A DNA stretch of 61,102 bases from an uncultured Eubacteriales bacterium. GTDB taxonomy: Bacteria > Bacillota > Clostridia > Christensenellales > Aristaeellaceae. The stretch spans positions 1 through 61,102 of the forward strand of contig CACWLP010000016.1 of NCBI GenBank assembly GCA_902761755.1. Reading direction: 5' to 3'. Shown here one piece after another: positions 46,689-60,121 of this stretch; position 1 is the stretch's first letter; every line of letters starts with the position of its first letter. The position numbers were made by a program, and so were the translations under genes. The notes beneath the pieces are model-generated. The model did not search any database. It saw only the letters and a program-made list of their open reading frames with translations, and was not told the DNA's origin.

Positions 46689-46710
46689 ATGAATTCATCC
46701 TTCGTTTGCG

Positions 46711-46819
46711 CCTTATCTGCCGGCGTGACAGCCACGCCGCTGGAATTGGCACCTTGCGCGCATATCCGCGCCGGTTGCCGGGCTTCATCGGGCCAGTCCC
46801 TCTGCCGCTCTGGATAAGG
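46711..46819 (-). ncRNA. SAM-I (S-box) riboswitch upstream of metK
   Basis: The transcript reads CCTTATC (P1 5' side, 46819-46813), CAGAGCGG, then GAGGGACTGGCCCGATGA and GCCCGGCAACC, the highly conserved S-box core, AAGGTGCCAATTCC, and GATAAGG closing P1 (46717-46711). It is followed by an intrinsic terminator. With SAM bound, transcription ends early and metK is not made. Promoter just upstream. Confidence 0.95.
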
Positions 46820-46835
46820 TATTCAGTTCTTATTC

Positions 46836-49750: not shown

Positions 49751-49778
49751 TTGACAAATCCTCCAAAAGGGTTACAAT
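49751..49778 (+). promoter_or_regulatory. Promoter of the T-box operon
   Basis: TTGACA (49751-49756), 16-base spacer, TACAAT (49773-49778). Confidence 0.8.
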
Positions 49779-49784
49779 ATCTGT

Positions 49785-50052
49785 AATCGCTTTGACGGAG
49801 CTAAGCTTTCCCGGGAAGCATGGAAGAGAGTTGGCGGCTGGTGCGAGCCAATCATGCGCGGAAAGGCTGCCTCACTCCCGAGCTGAACGCCTGAAAACCG
49901 CAGTAAGGCGTTCCGGATCGCCCCGTTATCACGGCGCAGGGCTTTTATGAGCCTAAAGAGACCGGAAAAACCGGTAACAAGGGTGGTACCGCGGTAAAGA
50001 AATTGCTTTATCGTCCCTGAAACGCAGATGCGATTCAGGGGCTTTTATTTTT
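49785..50052 (+). ncRNA. T-box leader, specifier read as Leu CUC
   Basis: The T-box core AACAAGGGTGGTACCGCGG is at 49977-49995. Stem I contains TTGGC-GGCTGGTGCGA-GCCAA (apical arm), GCATG/CATGC, and AGCTTTCC pairing with GGAAAGGCT. The specifier loop then lies on the 3' side at 49869-49875 (GCCTCAC), placing CTC (49871-49873) followed by the usual purine A. This reads as Leu. The terminator is CCCTGAA/TTCAGGG (50015-50040) with a long T-run. Uncharged tRNA-Leu should let transcription pass into the LeuA-like gene. The specifier assignment is from hand folding. Confidence 0.85.
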
Positions 50053-50072
50053 TCCAAGGAGGCTTGCCCGAT

Positions 50073-51470
50073 ATGCGTTCCATCGCCGTATCCAACCAGA
50101 CGCTGCTGTCCCCCATGCTGAAAAACGCGTCCTTCCGCCAGAAGCTGGAGGCCGCCCGGAAATTGGATCATCTGGGCCTGGAGGCCGTGGAGACCCCGGA
50201 GATCGCCGACCCCGAAGGGGATATGCTGCTGATGCGCAGCCTGTGGATGACGGTGAAGCGCAGCGCGCTTTGCTGCCGCACGGGGATCACCCGGGAAAGC
50301 GTCGCCCAGGCCTGGGACGCCGTCCGGGGCGCGAAAAAGCCGCGGCTGGCCGTGGCGCTGCCCCTGTCCAGCGCCCAGCTGGAGTATTTCTGCCATTTGA
50401 AGCCGCCCAAGGCCCTGGCGCTGATCGGGGAATTGGTCTCCGCCGCCAAGGCGCTGTGCCCCGACGTGGAATTCGTCTGCGAGGACGCGGTGCGGGCGGA
50501 AAGGAATTACGTGATCGACGCCGTGAAGGCCGCCGTGGATGCCGGCGCCGGGCGGATCACCCTGTGCGATTCCGCCGGGCAGAGCCTGCCGGAAGAGATC
50601 GCCGCCCTGGTGCGGGATGCCCGCGCCGCGGCGGGGGAAGGCACGGTGCTGGCCGTCCGCCCCGGGAACGAGCTGGGATTGGCGATCTCCTGCGCCGTGG
50701 CCGCGCTGCAAGCCGGCGCGGACGAGGTCAAAACCTCCTGCCTGGATGAAAACGCCCTCAGCGCCGTGCAGATGGCCCGCCTGTTCCGGGCCCGGGGCGC
50801 GGACCTGCAGCTGGAAAGCCCTCTGGACATTACCCGGGTGGAGCGCACCGCCGCCGAGATCCGGGAGCTCCTGGCCGACAGCGGCAAAAATACGCCCTTC
50901 GACGCCCCCGTCTTCTCCCGGGGCGGAGAGGAAACCCTCCCCGCCGGGGCGGACGACGCGGCGCTGCAGAAAGCCGTGCTGGCCCTGGGCTATGATCTGA
51001 ACGAAGAGGACGCCCAGCACGTGCGGGACGCGGTAGCCCGGGAGGGCAAGGGCCGGGCGCTGACCCGGGCCGAATTGGAGGCCGTGATCCTCTCCTCCGC
51101 CCAGCAGGTGCCCGCCACCTACCGGCTCCGGAGCTATCTGATCAACAGCGGCACCGCCATCACCGCCACCGCCCACGTGACGCTGGAAAAGAACGGCGAG
51201 CTCCTCTCCGGCCTGTGCGCCGGGGACGGCCCCATCGACGCCGCTTTCCTGGCCATCGAGCAGATCATCGGCTGCCATTACGAAATGGACGATTTCCAGA
51301 TCGCCGCCGTCACCCAGAACCGGGAGGCCATGGGCGACGCCCTGGTGAAGCTGCGCTGCGGCGGCCGGGTCTACGCCGGCAAGGGCATTTCCACCGACAT
51401 CAACGGCGCCGCCATCCGGGCGTACCTGAACGCCCTGAACAAGATCGCCTACGAGGAGAAAACCGTATGA
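50073..51470 (+). CDS. LeuA-like protein with lost catalytic residues and intact leucine-binding domain
   Basis: 465 residues. The N-terminal ~280 residues are an HMGL/LeuA-type barrel, but the RDGEQ motif that opens the active site is replaced by SNQTLLSPML, and the metal-binding HxH (SVHCHDDLGL in LeuA) is RPG in AVRPGNELGLA (196-198). The later NGIGERAGN metal ligand region reads SCLDENALS. In contrast the C-terminal allosteric domain (about 345-465) is well conserved: GDGPIDA (384-390) and GKGISTDINGAAIRAYLNALN (437-457, shown in two parts, GKGISTDI and AYLNALN). It therefore cannot make isopropylmalate by the normal route; leucine sensing or a scaffold role is my inference. ATG 50073 follows AAGGAGG. 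Confidence 0.85.
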   Translation: MRSIAVSNQTLLSPMLKNASFRQKLEAARKLDHLGLEAVETPEIADPEGDMLLMRSLWMTVKRSALCCRTGITRESVAQAWDAVRGAKKPRLAVALPLSSAQLEYFCHLKPPKALALIGELVSAAKALCPDVEFVCEDAVRAERNYVIDAVKAAVDAGAGRITLCDSAGQSLPEEIAALVRDARAAAGEGTVLAVRPGNELGLAISCAVAALQAGADEVKTSCLDENALSAVQMARLFRARGADLQLESPLDITRVERTAAEIRELLADSGKNTPFDAPVFSRGGEETLPAGADDAALQKAVLALGYDLNEEDAQHVRDAVAREGKGRALTRAELEAVILSSAQQVPATYRLRSYLINSGTAITATAHVTLEKNGELLSGLCAGDGPIDAAFLAIEQIIGCHYEMDDFQIAAVTQNREAMGDALVKLRCGGRVYAGKGISTDINGAAIRAYLNALNKIAYEEKTV

Positions 51471-53947
51471 AGCTGAGCTTTGCCACGGGCGACTGGCCCT
51501 TTTCCCTGCGGCAGTGCATGGATCTGGCCCGGGAAATGCGCTATGACGGGCTGGAGATCTCCCAGCGCAGCCTGGAGACCCTGTCCGCCGGCGGCGCGCC
51601 CTTCTCCCCCGCCCGATTGATGGAAACCGCCCGGATGCTGAACGACGAAAACCTGGCCGTCGCCTGCCTGGCGGCGGAAAAGGACTGGACGGAGGAAGAC
51701 GTTTTCTCCCTCCTGTCCCTGGCACGGGAGCTGCGCTGCCCCTGCGTGGCGCTCCCGATCCGGGAGACCCCGGAAATGGGCGCGGCGGGCCGGATCGCCC
51801 CCGTGCTTTCCAAGGCCGCGCAGCTGGGCGTCACCCTGGTGATCCCCACCTGCGGCCCCTATGCCGATACCGGCAGGCTGAAAACGCTGCTGGACCGCTT
51901 CGCCTCCGATTTTCTGGGCGCGGCCTGGCATCTGCCCTGCGCCGCCGCCGCGGGCAAGACCCCGGAGGACATCGTCACCGATCTGGGCGCCTACATCCGC
52001 CACGTATACCTGTGCGACGGCACGGTGGAAAAGGGCGAAGCGCAGCCCCGGCTGCTGGGGGAAGGGGAGCTGCCCCTTTCCGACGTGTTCGCCGCCCTGC
52101 GCTCCATCAGCTACGATGGCTTTTTCTCCTTCGACTGGACCCCGGGCAAGGGCGTGATGGGCCAGGCGGACGTGGTGCTTTCCCATTTCGCGGCCATGGC
52201 CCGGCCTCTGGGGCGGGACCCGCGCCGCGCCCGGCATCACCTGTATGAAAACCGCCGGGGAAACGGCAAATACATCTGGAAAAAGGAAATCATCATCGAA
52301 TCCACCTTCTCCCAGATGCTGGACCGGGTGGTGGAGGAATTCCCGGACCAGTACGCCTTCCGCTACACCACCCTGGATTACACCCGCACCTACGCCCAGT
52401 TCCGGGACGACGTGGACGAGTGCGCCCGGGCGCTGATCGCCATGGGGGTGCGCCGGGGGGCGAAGGTGGCCGTTTGGGCCACCAACGTGCCCCAGTGGTA
52501 CATCACCTTCTGGGCCACGGTAAAGATCGGCGCAGTGCTGGTGACCATGAACACCGCCTACAAGATCCATGAGGCGGAATACCTGCTGCGCCAGAGCGAC
52601 ACCCACACCCTGGTGCTGGTGGAGGGCTGGCGGGATTCGGACTACGCCGGCATCATCCGGGAGCTGTGCCCGGAGCTGAGCCATTCCGCCCCCGGAGAGG
52701 CGCTGCATCTCAAGCGCCTGCCCTTCCTGCGCAACATCGTCACCGTGGGCTTTTCCATGAAGGGCTGCCTCACCTGGGAGGAATTCCTCACCCGCAGCCG
52801 CCGCACCCCCCGGGAAGCGCTGCTGCGGCGGGCGGCGGAGGTGCGGCCGGACGACGTATGCAACATGCAGTACACCTCCGGCACCACGGGCTTCCCCAAG
52901 GGCGTGATGCTCACCCACCGGAACATCGTCAACAACGGCAAGTGCATCGGCGACCGGATGGACCTGTCCACCGCGGACCGGATGATGATCCAAGTGCCCA
53001 TGTTCCACTGCTTCGGCATGGTGCTGGCCATGACCGCCTCCATGACCCACGGGACCAGCCTCTTCCCTCTGCCTTACTTTTCCCCCAAGCCGGCCCTGGC
53101 CTGCATCCATCAGGAAAAGATCACCTGCTTCCACGGCGTGCCCACCATGTTCATCGCCCTGCTGGAGCATCCGGATTTTCCCAAGACCGATTTTTCCCAC
53201 ATGCGCACCGGCATCATGGCCGGCTCCCCCTGCCCCATCTCCGTGATGCGGGACGTGGTGAACAAAATGCACATGACGGAAATCACCATCGTTTACGGCC
53301 AGACGGAGGCCAGCCCGGGCTGCACCATGTCCTCCACGGACGATCCGCTGGAGGTGCGCGTGGCCACGGTGGGCCGGGCGCTGCCGGAAATCGAATGCCG
53401 GATCGTGGACCCGGAAACCGGCGAGGAGCTGCCCGACAACGTGACGGGCGAATTCGTGGCCCGGGGCTACAACATCATGAAGGGCTACTACAAAATGCCC
53501 CGGGCCACCCAGAGCGCCATCGACAAGGACGGCTGGCTGCACACCGGGGACCTGGCCTGCCGCACCCCCGAGGGCAATTACCGCATCACCGGCCGGCTCA
53601 AGGACATGATCATCCGCGGCGGCGAGAACATTTACCCCAAGGAGATCGAGGAATTCATCTACACCCACCCCAAGGTCTCCGACGTGCAGGTGATCGGCGT
53701 TCCGGACGAGCAGTACGGCGAGGAAATCATGGCCGTGGTGATCCTCAAAGAAGGACAAACCATGACCGAGGACGAATTAAAGCAATTCGTGCGGGACCAC
53801 ATGGCCCGGCACAAGACCCCCCGGTACGTGCGGTTCGTGGACGCGTTCCCCACCAACGCGGCGGGCAAGATCCTCAAATACAAAATGCGCCAGGACGCCG
53901 TGGAGCTCCTCAAGCTGCAAAAGGCCAATTCCATCGAAACAGCCTGA
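51467..53947 (+). CDS. TIM-barrel (sugar-isomerase-like) / acyl-CoA synthetase fusion
   Basis: 826 residues, continuous frame. Residues 1-~250 are a xylose-isomerase-like TIM barrel (YDGLEIS, VYLCDG, FFSFDW; the late metal-ligand Glu is Asp), and ~275-826 are an AMP-forming acyl-CoA synthetase: YTSGTTGFPKGV (ATP loop), GQTEASPG, HTGDL, GRLKDMIIRGGENIYPKEIE and the catalytic Lys in AGKILKYKM. The linker YENRRGNGKYIWKKE joins them, with no start codon or ribosome site between, so the fusion appears real. It activates a carboxylic acid, probably short- or branched-chain (inference from neighbours). The start ATG 51467 overlaps the LeuA-like stop by four bases. Confidence 0.88.
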   Translation: MKLSFATGDWPFSLRQCMDLAREMRYDGLEISQRSLETLSAGGAPFSPARLMETARMLNDENLAVACLAAEKDWTEEDVFSLLSLARELRCPCVALPIRETPEMGAAGRIAPVLSKAAQLGVTLVIPTCGPYADTGRLKTLLDRFASDFLGAAWHLPCAAAAGKTPEDIVTDLGAYIRHVYLCDGTVEKGEAQPRLLGEGELPLSDVFAALRSISYDGFFSFDWTPGKGVMGQADVVLSHFAAMARPLGRDPRRARHHLYENRRGNGKYIWKKEIIIESTFSQMLDRVVEEFPDQYAFRYTTLDYTRTYAQFRDDVDECARALIAMGVRRGAKVAVWATNVPQWYITFWATVKIGAVLVTMNTAYKIHEAEYLLRQSDTHTLVLVEGWRDSDYAGIIRELCPELSHSAPGEALHLKRLPFLRNIVTVGFSMKGCLTWEEFLTRSRRTPREALLRRAAEVRPDDVCNMQYTSGTTGFPKGVMLTHRNIVNNGKCIGDRMDLSTADRMMIQVPMFHCFGMVLAMTASMTHGTSLFPLPYFSPKPALACIHQEKITCFHGVPTMFIALLEHPDFPKTDFSHMRTGIMAGSPCPISVMRDVVNKMHMTEITIVYGQTEASPGCTMSSTDDPLEVRVATVGRALPEIECRIVDPETGEELPDNVTGEFVARGYNIMKGYYKMPRATQSAIDKDGWLHTGDLACRTPEGNYRITGRLKDMIIRGGENIYPKEIEEFIYTHPKVSDVQVIGVPDEQYGEEIMAVVILKEGQTMTEDELKQFVRDHMARHKTPRYVRFVDAFPTNAAGKILKYKMRQDAVELLKLQKANSIETA

Positions 53948-53977
53948 CAATAGAGAACAGAAAGGAAGCGCACATCC

Positions 53978-55039
53978 ATGGAAATCAAAATGAACCTCAC
54001 CACCGCCCCCAAGCAGAAACCCGACGAAAGCAACCTGGGCTTCGGCAAGATCTTTACCGATCACATGTTCGTCATGGATTGGGACAGCGAAAACGGCTGG
54101 CATGACGCCCGGATCGAGCCCTTCGGCCCCCTGGTGCTGCATCCCGCCGCCACGGTGTTCCATTACGGCGCGGAGATTTTCGAGGGCCTGAAGGCCTACC
54201 GCCGCCCCGATGGGGACGTGCAGCTGTTCCGCCCCTGGGAGAATATCAAGCGCCTCAACAATTCCGCCGAGCGCCTGAGCCTGCCCCAGGTGGACGAGGA
54301 ATTCGCCCTGGAAGCCCTCAAAAAGTTCGTGGCCCTGGAAAAGGACTGGGTGCCCTCCGCGCCCGGCACCAGCCTGTATCTGCGCCCCTTCCTCTTCGGC
54401 AATGACGAAACGCTGGGCGTGCACACCATCCACCACGCCAAATACGTGGTGATCGCCTCCCCCGTGGGCGCGTACTACGCCGAGGGGCTGAACCCCGTCA
54501 AGATCATGATCGAGACCCGGGACGTCCGCGCTGTCCGCGGCGGCACGGGCTATACCAAGTGCGGCGGCAACTACGCCGCCTCCATGCGCGCCGGCGACCG
54601 GGCGGCCGCCGAGGGCTATTCCCAGGTGCTGTGGCTGGACGGCGTGGAGCGCCGCTACATCGAGGAAGTGGGCGCCATGAACGTCATGTTCCTCATCAAC
54701 GGCACCGTGGTCACCCCCGCCCTCACCGGCTCCATCCTGCCGGGCATCACCCGCAAGAGCTGCATCGAGCTGCTGCGGGAAATGGGCTACACCGTGGAAG
54801 AACGCCTGCTGCCCGTGGAGGAGCTCTCCCAGGCCCTCAAGGACGGCTCCCTCACCGAAGCCTGGGGCTGCGGCACCGCGGCGGTCATCTCCCCCATCGG
54901 CGAGCTGCGCATGGGCCAGGCCCATTACCAGGTGGCCGACGGCGGCATCGGCAAGCTCTCCCAGAAGCTGTACGATACCCTCACCTCCATCCAGTGGGGC
55001 ACCGCTCCCGACACCCATCAGTGGACCTGCAAAGTGTAA
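53978..55039 (+). CDS. ilvE: Branched-chain amino acid aminotransferase
   Basis: 353 residues, class IV PLP enzyme. The PLP lysine lies in GYTKCGGNYAAS (about residue 193), with FHYGAEIFEGLKAYR, YLRPFLF and TPALTGSILPGITR all in place. The N-terminus (KIFTDHMFVMDW) and length place it in the larger BCAT II group. It interconverts leucine, isoleucine and valine with their 2-oxoacids. AAAGGAAG precedes ATG 53978, and it is 30 bases from the synthetase fusion, so it is in the Leu-T-box operon. It ends at a strong terminator. Full-length and apparently intact. Confidence 0.95.
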   Translation: MEIKMNLTTAPKQKPDESNLGFGKIFTDHMFVMDWDSENGWHDARIEPFGPLVLHPAATVFHYGAEIFEGLKAYRRPDGDVQLFRPWENIKRLNNSAERLSLPQVDEEFALEALKKFVALEKDWVPSAPGTSLYLRPFLFGNDETLGVHTIHHAKYVVIASPVGAYYAEGLNPVKIMIETRDVRAVRGGTGYTKCGGNYAASMRAGDRAAAEGYSQVLWLDGVERRYIEEVGAMNVMFLINGTVVTPALTGSILPGITRKSCIELLREMGYTVEERLLPVEELSQALKDGSLTEAWGCGTAAVISPIGELRMGQAHYQVADGGIGKLSQKLYDTLTSIQWGTAPDTHQWTCKV

Positions 55040-60044: not shown

Positions 60045-60121
60045 GGTCCCGTAGCTCAGCAGGATAGAGCGGTCGCCTCCTAAGCGACAGGCCGTGGGTT
60101 CGAATCCCGCCGGGATCACCA
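60045..60121 (+). tRNA. tRNA-Arg (anticodon CCT), complete
   Basis: 77 bases including CCA. Acceptor GGTCCCG (60045-60051) with CGGGATC, D-arm GCTC/GAGC, anticodon stem GTCGC/GCGAC with loop CTCCTAA (anticodon CCT at 60079-60081), T-arm GTGGG-TTCGAAT-CCCGC, A discriminator, encoded CCA. No promoter of its own is seen, so it may be read from the promoter of the broken copy. Confidence 0.93.

Follow-up and report, generated by a model that had tools for sequence, protein, structure and literature searches.

A leucine T-box operon encoding a catalytically dead LeuA homologue, an acyl-CoA synthetase fusion and BCAT: a candidate leucine branch of branched-chain volatile fatty acid salvage

We analysed a 61,102-nucleotide (61-kb) stretch of DNA from an uncultured Eubacteriales bacterium of the Aristaeellaceae (assembly GCA_902761755.1), which is the whole contig CACWLP010000016.1 of a draft genome of 2.2 Mb that is 73% complete and is called the window here. 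Positions 49751 to 55039 of its forward strand carry three genes behind a T-box leader, which we read as the probable leucine branch of a salvage system for branched-chain volatile fatty acids. A promoter-like site (TTGACA-16-TACAAT; 49751..49778, +), a consensus match only, at 11 of 12 positions, lies directly upstream of the T-box leader (49783..50021, +), and an intrinsic terminator hairpin with a U-run (50013..50054, +; fold of 49975-50056, z -3.04) is the alternative to the antiterminator of this leader. The first gene (50073..51470, +) encodes a homologue of 2-isopropylmalate synthase LeuA, with HMGL-like and LeuA_dimer domains (conserved regulatory domain at residues 330-458), that lacks the Asp of the RDG motif as well as the HxH and GER motifs, and we refer to it as dLeuA. 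The second gene (51467..53947, +) encodes, in a single frame, a fusion of a TIM barrel (AP_endonuc_2) with an AMP-forming acyl-CoA synthetase (ACS; AMP-binding and AMP-binding_C), and the third (53978..55039, +) encodes a branched-chain aminotransferase (BCAT, ilvE_II; NF009897 477.6 bits with a cut-off of 307, TIGR01123 400.7 bits with a cut-off of 250.05). The fusion overlaps dLeuA by 4 bases, its start codon overlapping the dLeuA stop, and the gap between the fusion and BCAT is 30 bases, as expected from the sequence-only reading of this DNA, which had described an isomerase-like/acyl-CoA-synthetase fusion followed by ilvE in overlapping or tightly packed order.

The synthetase domains of the fusion (52322..53869, +) match PF00501 with 312.9 bits and PF13193 with 77 bits, and the motif TSGTTGFPKG is intact in the window and present in 42 of 42 rows of a fusion alignment. 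The window fusion thus has both domains and the ATP motif of an AMP-forming ACS, and the 50 Foldseek matches listed for the whole fusion are all acyl-CoA synthetase-like enzymes. The TIM-barrel domain (51521..52144, +; residues 19-226) matches PF01261 with 44.4 bits, and it gives only weak matches to PDB sequences. Three of the four canonical metal ligands are missing from it, at the columns that we take to be the ligand positions of PF01261, and the E/D/H/E ligand set is complete in 16 of the 42 rows of that fusion alignment and in 6 of 29 rows of another. The TIM domain (51521-52144) appears to be drifting, with ligands complete in some relatives and incomplete in the window.

Relatives of dLeuA were collected from genomes of the same order and of the whole class. 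In the order sample of 200 genomes, searched with dLeuA at E<=1e-30, 43 genomes matched; 10 of these matches are true LeuA (over the cut-off) and 33 are dLeuA, and the 33 carriers include the window's own genome. The class-wide sample gave 43 matching genomes among 341, or 41 without the two weakest (G412 and G286), which may be true LeuA, and hence 41 is the count used. A total of 112 loci were examined: the window, loci from 31 of the 32 remaining carriers in the order sample, and the 80 best among 560 relatives in genome contigs; because two of them (L048 and L149) are the same contig with an identical dLeuA end, 111 loci are distinct. The dLeuA ends of two further loci (L135 and L139) are likewise identical, and a single species may lie behind both. 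Most titles of the relatives refer to Clostridia and related groups, with a ruminant host named in 40 of the 80 named contigs (best 80 of 560), and a plasmid search with dLeuA gave no match at E<=1e-40. Three dLeuA cassettes (L104, L135, and L139) are on contigs titled Salinivirgaceae or Bacteroidetes, which could reflect gene transfer or mis-binned contigs.

Under a strict filter, 105 of the 111 distinct loci have the TIM-ACS fusion directly downstream of dLeuA and in the same orientation, and the linkage spans many families. Of the remaining six loci, the window, L073, and L129 have the fusion and miss the filter owing to a truncated dLeuA or to filter limits, the contigs of L101 and L114 end inside the fusion, and that of L131 ends just after dLeuA. 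Conserved linkage in related genomes, on which the sequence-only reading had made its own fate depend, is therefore present. The possibility that the fusion is a local annotation or assembly artefact was rejected on the same count. BCAT is found in 33 of the 111 loci, always on the dLeuA strand, and because many contigs are cut, the locus counts for BCAT and for the oxidoreductases described below are lower bounds. An amidohydrolase-like protein (by eye) of ~274 amino acids is found near the cassette in 17 of the 112 loci, including L049, L054, L113, and L123.

The dLeuA protein falls far below the models of genuine LeuA: it scores 191.1 bits against the bacterial LeuA model TIGR00973 (cut-off 598.7) and 225.3 bits against NF002086 (cut-off 532), its best curated LeuA-type model. 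The LeuA regulatory domain PF08502, in contrast, is found with 92.8 bits at a gathering score of 24.9. Of the 112 fetched relatives, all but three short ones entered an alignment of 109 dLeuA rows (the residue counts still contain the duplicate contig L048/L149), to which eight true LeuA/CimA-type sequences of the order were added. Among the 109 dLeuA rows, the RDG Asp is retained in a single one and the Arg in 38, and Glu replaces the Asp in 24; both His of HxH are kept in none and the first His in one row, and 105 rows have a gap at the GER Glu. The window copy has neither the RDG Asp nor the HxH His, which we take to be metal ligands in LeuA. The claim that the LeuA-like protein has lost its catalytic residues is thus borne out across the family. 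Mean conservation among dLeuA is 0.75 in the regulatory part vs 0.52 in the catalytic part, and the regulatory motifs resembling GDGP.DAAF and G.G.STD are kept in 97 and 107 of the 109 rows, respectively. The AlphaFold model of dLeuA has a pLDDT of 89.4 and a pTM of 0.60, and its best Foldseek matches include LeuA structures, among them the leucine-bound enzyme of M. tuberculosis. Judged from its sequence, dLeuA is a pseudoenzyme whose regulatory half is well preserved, a feature that the sequence-only reading had not mentioned, and it is probably a leucine sensor or leucine-sensing subunit.

The leader matches the T-box model RF00230 with 106.5 bits (gathering score 93), and the triplet aligned to the specifier columns of the model is CUC, which supports the leucine specifier proposed from the letters alone. 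Both the antiterminator with its UGGN bulge (UGGU) and the competing terminator are present. A tRNA-Leu(GAG) with the 3' end ACCA is encoded in the window's genome and fits both the CUC specifier and the UGGU bulge, and the same specifier position rule yields Val for the T-box of valS, Ile for that of ileS, and Ser for that of serS in this genome. By a strict pattern scan, a T-box precedes dLeuA in 72 of the 111 distinct loci and 72 of 72 reads are Leu (55 CUC and 17 CUG), and with the RF00230 covariance model a T-box is seen close to dLeuA in 20 of 29 order loci. The use of two different Leu codons and no other codon is strong evidence for leucine as the signal. A chance or non-Leu specifier was rejected on these 72 reads. 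A looser T-box pattern gave 79 reads, 12 of them non-Leu; 10 of these 12 loci are Leu by the strict pattern, and the other two (L062 and L073) have no strict-pattern read. Because the looser pattern conflicts with strict Leu reads in 10 of 12 cases, the strict counts were used. A sub-threshold STnc490 match was seen in another locus (L093, 4063-4171; 52.6 bits vs a gathering score of 56).

The sequence-only reading had placed a 2-oxoacid oxidoreductase elsewhere in the genome, and VorBAC is indeed encoded on another contig of the window's genome (C12; VorB 454.2 bits vs a cut-off of 399), while in some relatives it belongs to the same operon. Clustering of the neighbours of dLeuA gave oxidoreductase alpha, beta, and gamma subunits in 25, 22, and 23 loci, respectively, and the alpha subunit is VorB by NCBIfam, over the cut-off in both proteins scanned. 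All three Vor genes are on the dLeuA strand in 19 of the 111 loci, any Vor or PFOR gene is present in 37, and PFOR in 13. Two loci (L072 and L134) have the closely packed order T-box(Leu), dLeuA, TIM/ACS, BCAT, P-loop ATPase-like protein, two-cluster ferredoxin, VorB, VorA, and VorC; two others (L103 and L121) have T-box(Leu), dLeuA, TIM/ACS, BCAT, and PFOR. These four loci indicate that a full route from acid to amino acid can sit under one leucine switch. The Vor order of L072 and L134 recurs in L110 and L152 without a strict-pattern T-box. The P-loop ATPase-like protein (by eye) and the two-cluster ferredoxin lie beside VorBAC in several loci (L134, 11958-12686; L170, 6214-7212; and others), and no NCBIfam model matched the ATPase-like protein at the limits used.

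We compared the classical pathway between carriers and other genomes of the order sample by means of ilvC, leuA, and leuC, with leuB, leuD, ilvB, and ilvD outside the comparison. No ilvC is found in the 33 dLeuA carriers vs 63 of the 167 other genomes (Fisher p 1.8e-6, kinship ignored), and no leuA over the cut-off is found in the carriers vs 54 of the 167. VorB is present in 32 of the 33 carriers vs 87 of the 167 others, and an ACS resembling MbcS (E<=1e-120) is present in 33 of 33 vs 70 of 167. In seven families some genomes have dLeuA and others ilvC, and no single genome has the two together. In the window's own assembly, 73% complete, no match to leuC, leuA, or ilvC is found at E<=1e-30 (leuB and leuD were not searched), which agrees, as far as leuC is concerned, with the earlier claim that the usual leucine genes leuB and leuCD are missing.

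The window's genome carries 13 T-box matches, two of which, not mentioned in the sequence-only reading, precede genes for XRE-cupin-ACS proteins outside the window. One unit has a GUG (Val) T-box on C12, divergent from the Vor operon, and its XRE-cupin-ACS gene is at L170, 3784-6360; the other has an AUC (Ile) T-box on contig C22, with its XRE-cupin-ACS gene at L163, 14935-17527. Both specifiers are anchored on the covariance model at 79.8 and 61.6 bits, respectively, which is below the gathering score, and a tRNA-Val(CAC) is encoded in the genome. The two synthetases are 68% identical, and the best curated family of the Ile-unit ACS, the one scanned, is MbcS, at 411.5 bits vs a cut-off of 850. 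The XRE-cupin-ACS proteins each join a DNA-binding domain to a cupin and an enzyme within a single polypeptide and are possibly self-regulating.

The other loci contain 51 ACS paralogues longer than 500 amino acids, 49 of them with the XRE-cupin part. The strict pattern reads an Ile T-box in front of 17 of them and a Val T-box in front of 12, finds none for 20, and misplaces its read for the remaining two. These two reads (L132 and L155, both from XRE-cupin-ACS leaders) are GGC by the strict pattern and GTC (Val) by eye, that of L155 also being GTC by the looser pattern, and they are not among the 12 Val reads. Eleven loci have two ACS T-box reads, nine of them Ile and Val and two of them Ile and misplaced, and in each of the eleven dLeuA is preceded by a Leu read as well, so that nine loci carry Leu, Ile, and Val units together. 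The covariance model finds 12 T-boxes in four of these nine loci, and the ten printed alignments give four Leu, three Ile, and three Val specifiers. According to PMC10026030, MbcS activates 2-methylbutyrate and isobutyrate, and isovalerate poorly. This substrate range fits Ile and Val, and leucine would then need its own synthetase of another branch. The sister units appear to salvage 2-methylbutyrate to Ile and isobutyrate to Val, with substrates predicted in the same way as for the Leu unit. In one locus (L052, from G192), a Val T-box precedes a 557-amino-acid ACS without the XRE-cupin part.

At the level of the DNA and its translations, then, the T-box with its specifier, the dead active site, the retained regulatory domain, the linkage, the absence of ilvC and over-cut-off leuA in the sampled carriers, and the sister units are all in place. 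We give a probability of roughly three in four to the reading that the operon serves leucine within a salvage system for branched-chain volatile fatty acids and has dLeuA as its leucine sensor, in which we infer the acid, the reductive direction, the induction, the sensor role, and any complex. The overall salvage interpretation of the sequence-only reading is supported by the Leu specifier, the conserved linkage, the presence of the oxidoreductase, and the carriers' lack of ilvC and over-cut-off leuA. When leucine is short, uncharged tRNA-Leu(GAG) would pair with the CUC specifier and with the T-box bulge, the terminator would not form, and the operon would be read. The ACS domain would activate isovalerate with ATP to isovaleryl-CoA, VorBAC (or PFOR) would carboxylate it reductively with reduced ferredoxin and CO2 to 2-oxoisocaproate, and BCAT would convert this to leucine. 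Genuine LeuA is feedback-inhibited by leucine, and dLeuA would most probably bind leucine by its retained regulatory domain and throttle the synthetase, to which it would be translationally coupled. The wider proposal, that many gut Clostridia have a three-armed salvage in place of branched-chain amino acid synthesis, with one ACS and T-box each for Leu, Ile, and Val and a dead LeuA as the leucine-binding subunit that controls the synthetase, seems to us about evenly balanced between true and false.

Several observations weigh against the salvage reading. No strict-pattern T-box is found in 39 of the 111 loci, at least three of which do carry a T-box (L048 by eye, L093, and L129, the last one 807 bases upstream). 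Among nine Vor-BCAT loci scanned with Rfam, eight have no T-box at the gathering score, the single T-box (L052) lying before a downstream ACS, and three loci (L083, L086, and L104) have none even at E<=0.01. The window ACS is near broad fatty-acid ligase models only, below their cut-offs, by NCBIfam, with PRK12583 as the nearest; isovalerate as its substrate is a prediction from the Leu T-box and pathway logic. The lack of the classical pathway has exceptions, with leuC over the cut-off in 4 of the 33 carriers (G065, G097, G179, and G192) vs 74 of the 167 others, and with a leuA-like gene in two pieces in a further carrier (G142). Neither dLeuA nor ilvC is found in 104 of the 200 order genomes, and lack of ilvC alone therefore does not imply the salvage system. 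Moreover, 26 ilvC genomes without dLeuA carry an MbcS-like ACS, indicating that the MbcS-like family has other uses. In a genome of the same genus that is 95% complete (G155), dLeuA, ilvC, the MbcS-like ACS, and VorB were not found at the limits used, which indicates that the system is patchy even in close kin.

Other uses of the synthetases and of dLeuA have to be weighed against this. The synthetases could supply branched acyl-CoA primers for membrane lipids, with the T-boxes switching them on when the source amino acids run short, which would spare those amino acids. MbcS of S. aureus is known for branched-chain fatty acid synthesis (PMC10026030), the Ile-unit ACS is MbcS-like, and the 26 ilvC genomes mentioned above fit such a role; on the other hand, BCAT in the window, and BCAT with an oxidoreductase in L072, L134, L103, and L121, lie downstream of the Leu T-box and would drain leucine during leucine starvation if the acyl-CoA were made for lipids, and the carriers' near-universal VorB and missing ilvC speak against it as well, so that we consider lipid priming improbable. 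Leucine degradation, in which BCAT and the oxidoreductase make isovaleryl-CoA and the synthetase works in reverse or recycles the acid, draws on the reversibility of the BCAT and Vor/PFOR reactions and on the fermentation of branched-chain amino acids by gut anaerobes. T-boxes of this type allow read-through when the tRNA is uncharged, however, so that a catabolic operon would be expressed in the absence of leucine; AMP-forming synthetases usually serve for activation, and the carriers lack ilvC and over-cut-off leuA. Given the T-box and the lack of synthesis genes, degradation was rejected as the main function, and we hold it to be very improbable.

A further alternative concerns the sensor part of the salvage reading only: dLeuA may catalyse another reaction, for instance as an aldolase or lyase acting on a related substrate, or be a mere scaffold for the TIM-ACS fusion. 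The barrel fold is intact in the predicted model, the barrel residues Lys110, Asp138, and Arg141 (window numbering) are invariant in 51 rows, and the rows with Glu for the RDG Asp or with the Arg kept could be read in the same sense, whereas the lost HxH pair, the gapped GER Glu, and the better conservation of the regulatory part over the barrel argue against it. We regard a non-sensor dLeuA as rather unlikely.

The chemistry of the proposed salvage pathway has been known since 1962, and the gene set is without prior report in the literature searched. Passages of PMC7356843, citing Allison, state that rumen bacteria make leucine from isovalerate by carboxylation and valine from isobutyrate, and methanogens likewise use 2-methylbutyrate and isovalerate, as stated in part of PMC10658910. 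The rumen pathway of Allison (1962, 1966), with isovalerate to leucine, isobutyrate to valine, and 2-methylbutyrate to isoleucine, is alike in its conversions, but it is described in these passages (PMC7356843) as metabolism, whereas the present proposal comprises a gene set, its regulatory RNA, and a candidate allosteric subunit. The Leu T-box of the B. subtilis ilv-leu operon (Marta 1996, as cited in a passage of PMC2494555) shares with the window leader its class, the CUC specifier, and leucine synthesis as the output, but it controls a different gene set. Compared to 2-isopropylmalate synthase LeuA, dLeuA keeps the two-part architecture, the fold, and the regulatory motifs but has lost the RDG, HxH, and GER residues and the score of a genuine LeuA. 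MbcS of S. aureus is the best curated family for the Ile-unit ACS, but this ACS stays below its cut-off, the sister units carry XRE and cupin domains and Ile/Val T-boxes, and the window ACS is nearest to another family. HisZ, a dead paralogue of HisRS that regulates HisG, is a dead enzyme kept as the regulatory subunit of a biosynthetic enzyme; it belongs to different protein families, and dLeuA, unlike HisZ, derives from the replaced pathway itself. A literature search that covered few subscription papers returned no report of this gene set, of a dead LeuA, or of three T-box/ACS units, and no paper naming the activating genes of the rumen carboxylation trait.

If the salvage reading is true, it would provide genes, regulators, and a genomic marker for the carboxylation of branched-chain volatile fatty acids, as well as three synthetases with substrates predicted from their RNA leaders, and dLeuA would clearly exemplify a feedback sensor that outlived its enzyme and was attached to the replacement pathway. 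In gut metagenomes it could help to separate genuine auxotrophs for branched-chain amino acids from organisms that salvage them, a distinction relevant to ruminant feeding and to models of cross-feeding.

Two further RNA features were seen in the window. A SAM riboswitch (RF00162, 90 bits; 46710-46820, -) precedes a minus-strand gene resembling metK (by eye), and a tRNA-Arg (CCT) at 60045-60121 (+) is the sole tRNA in the window.

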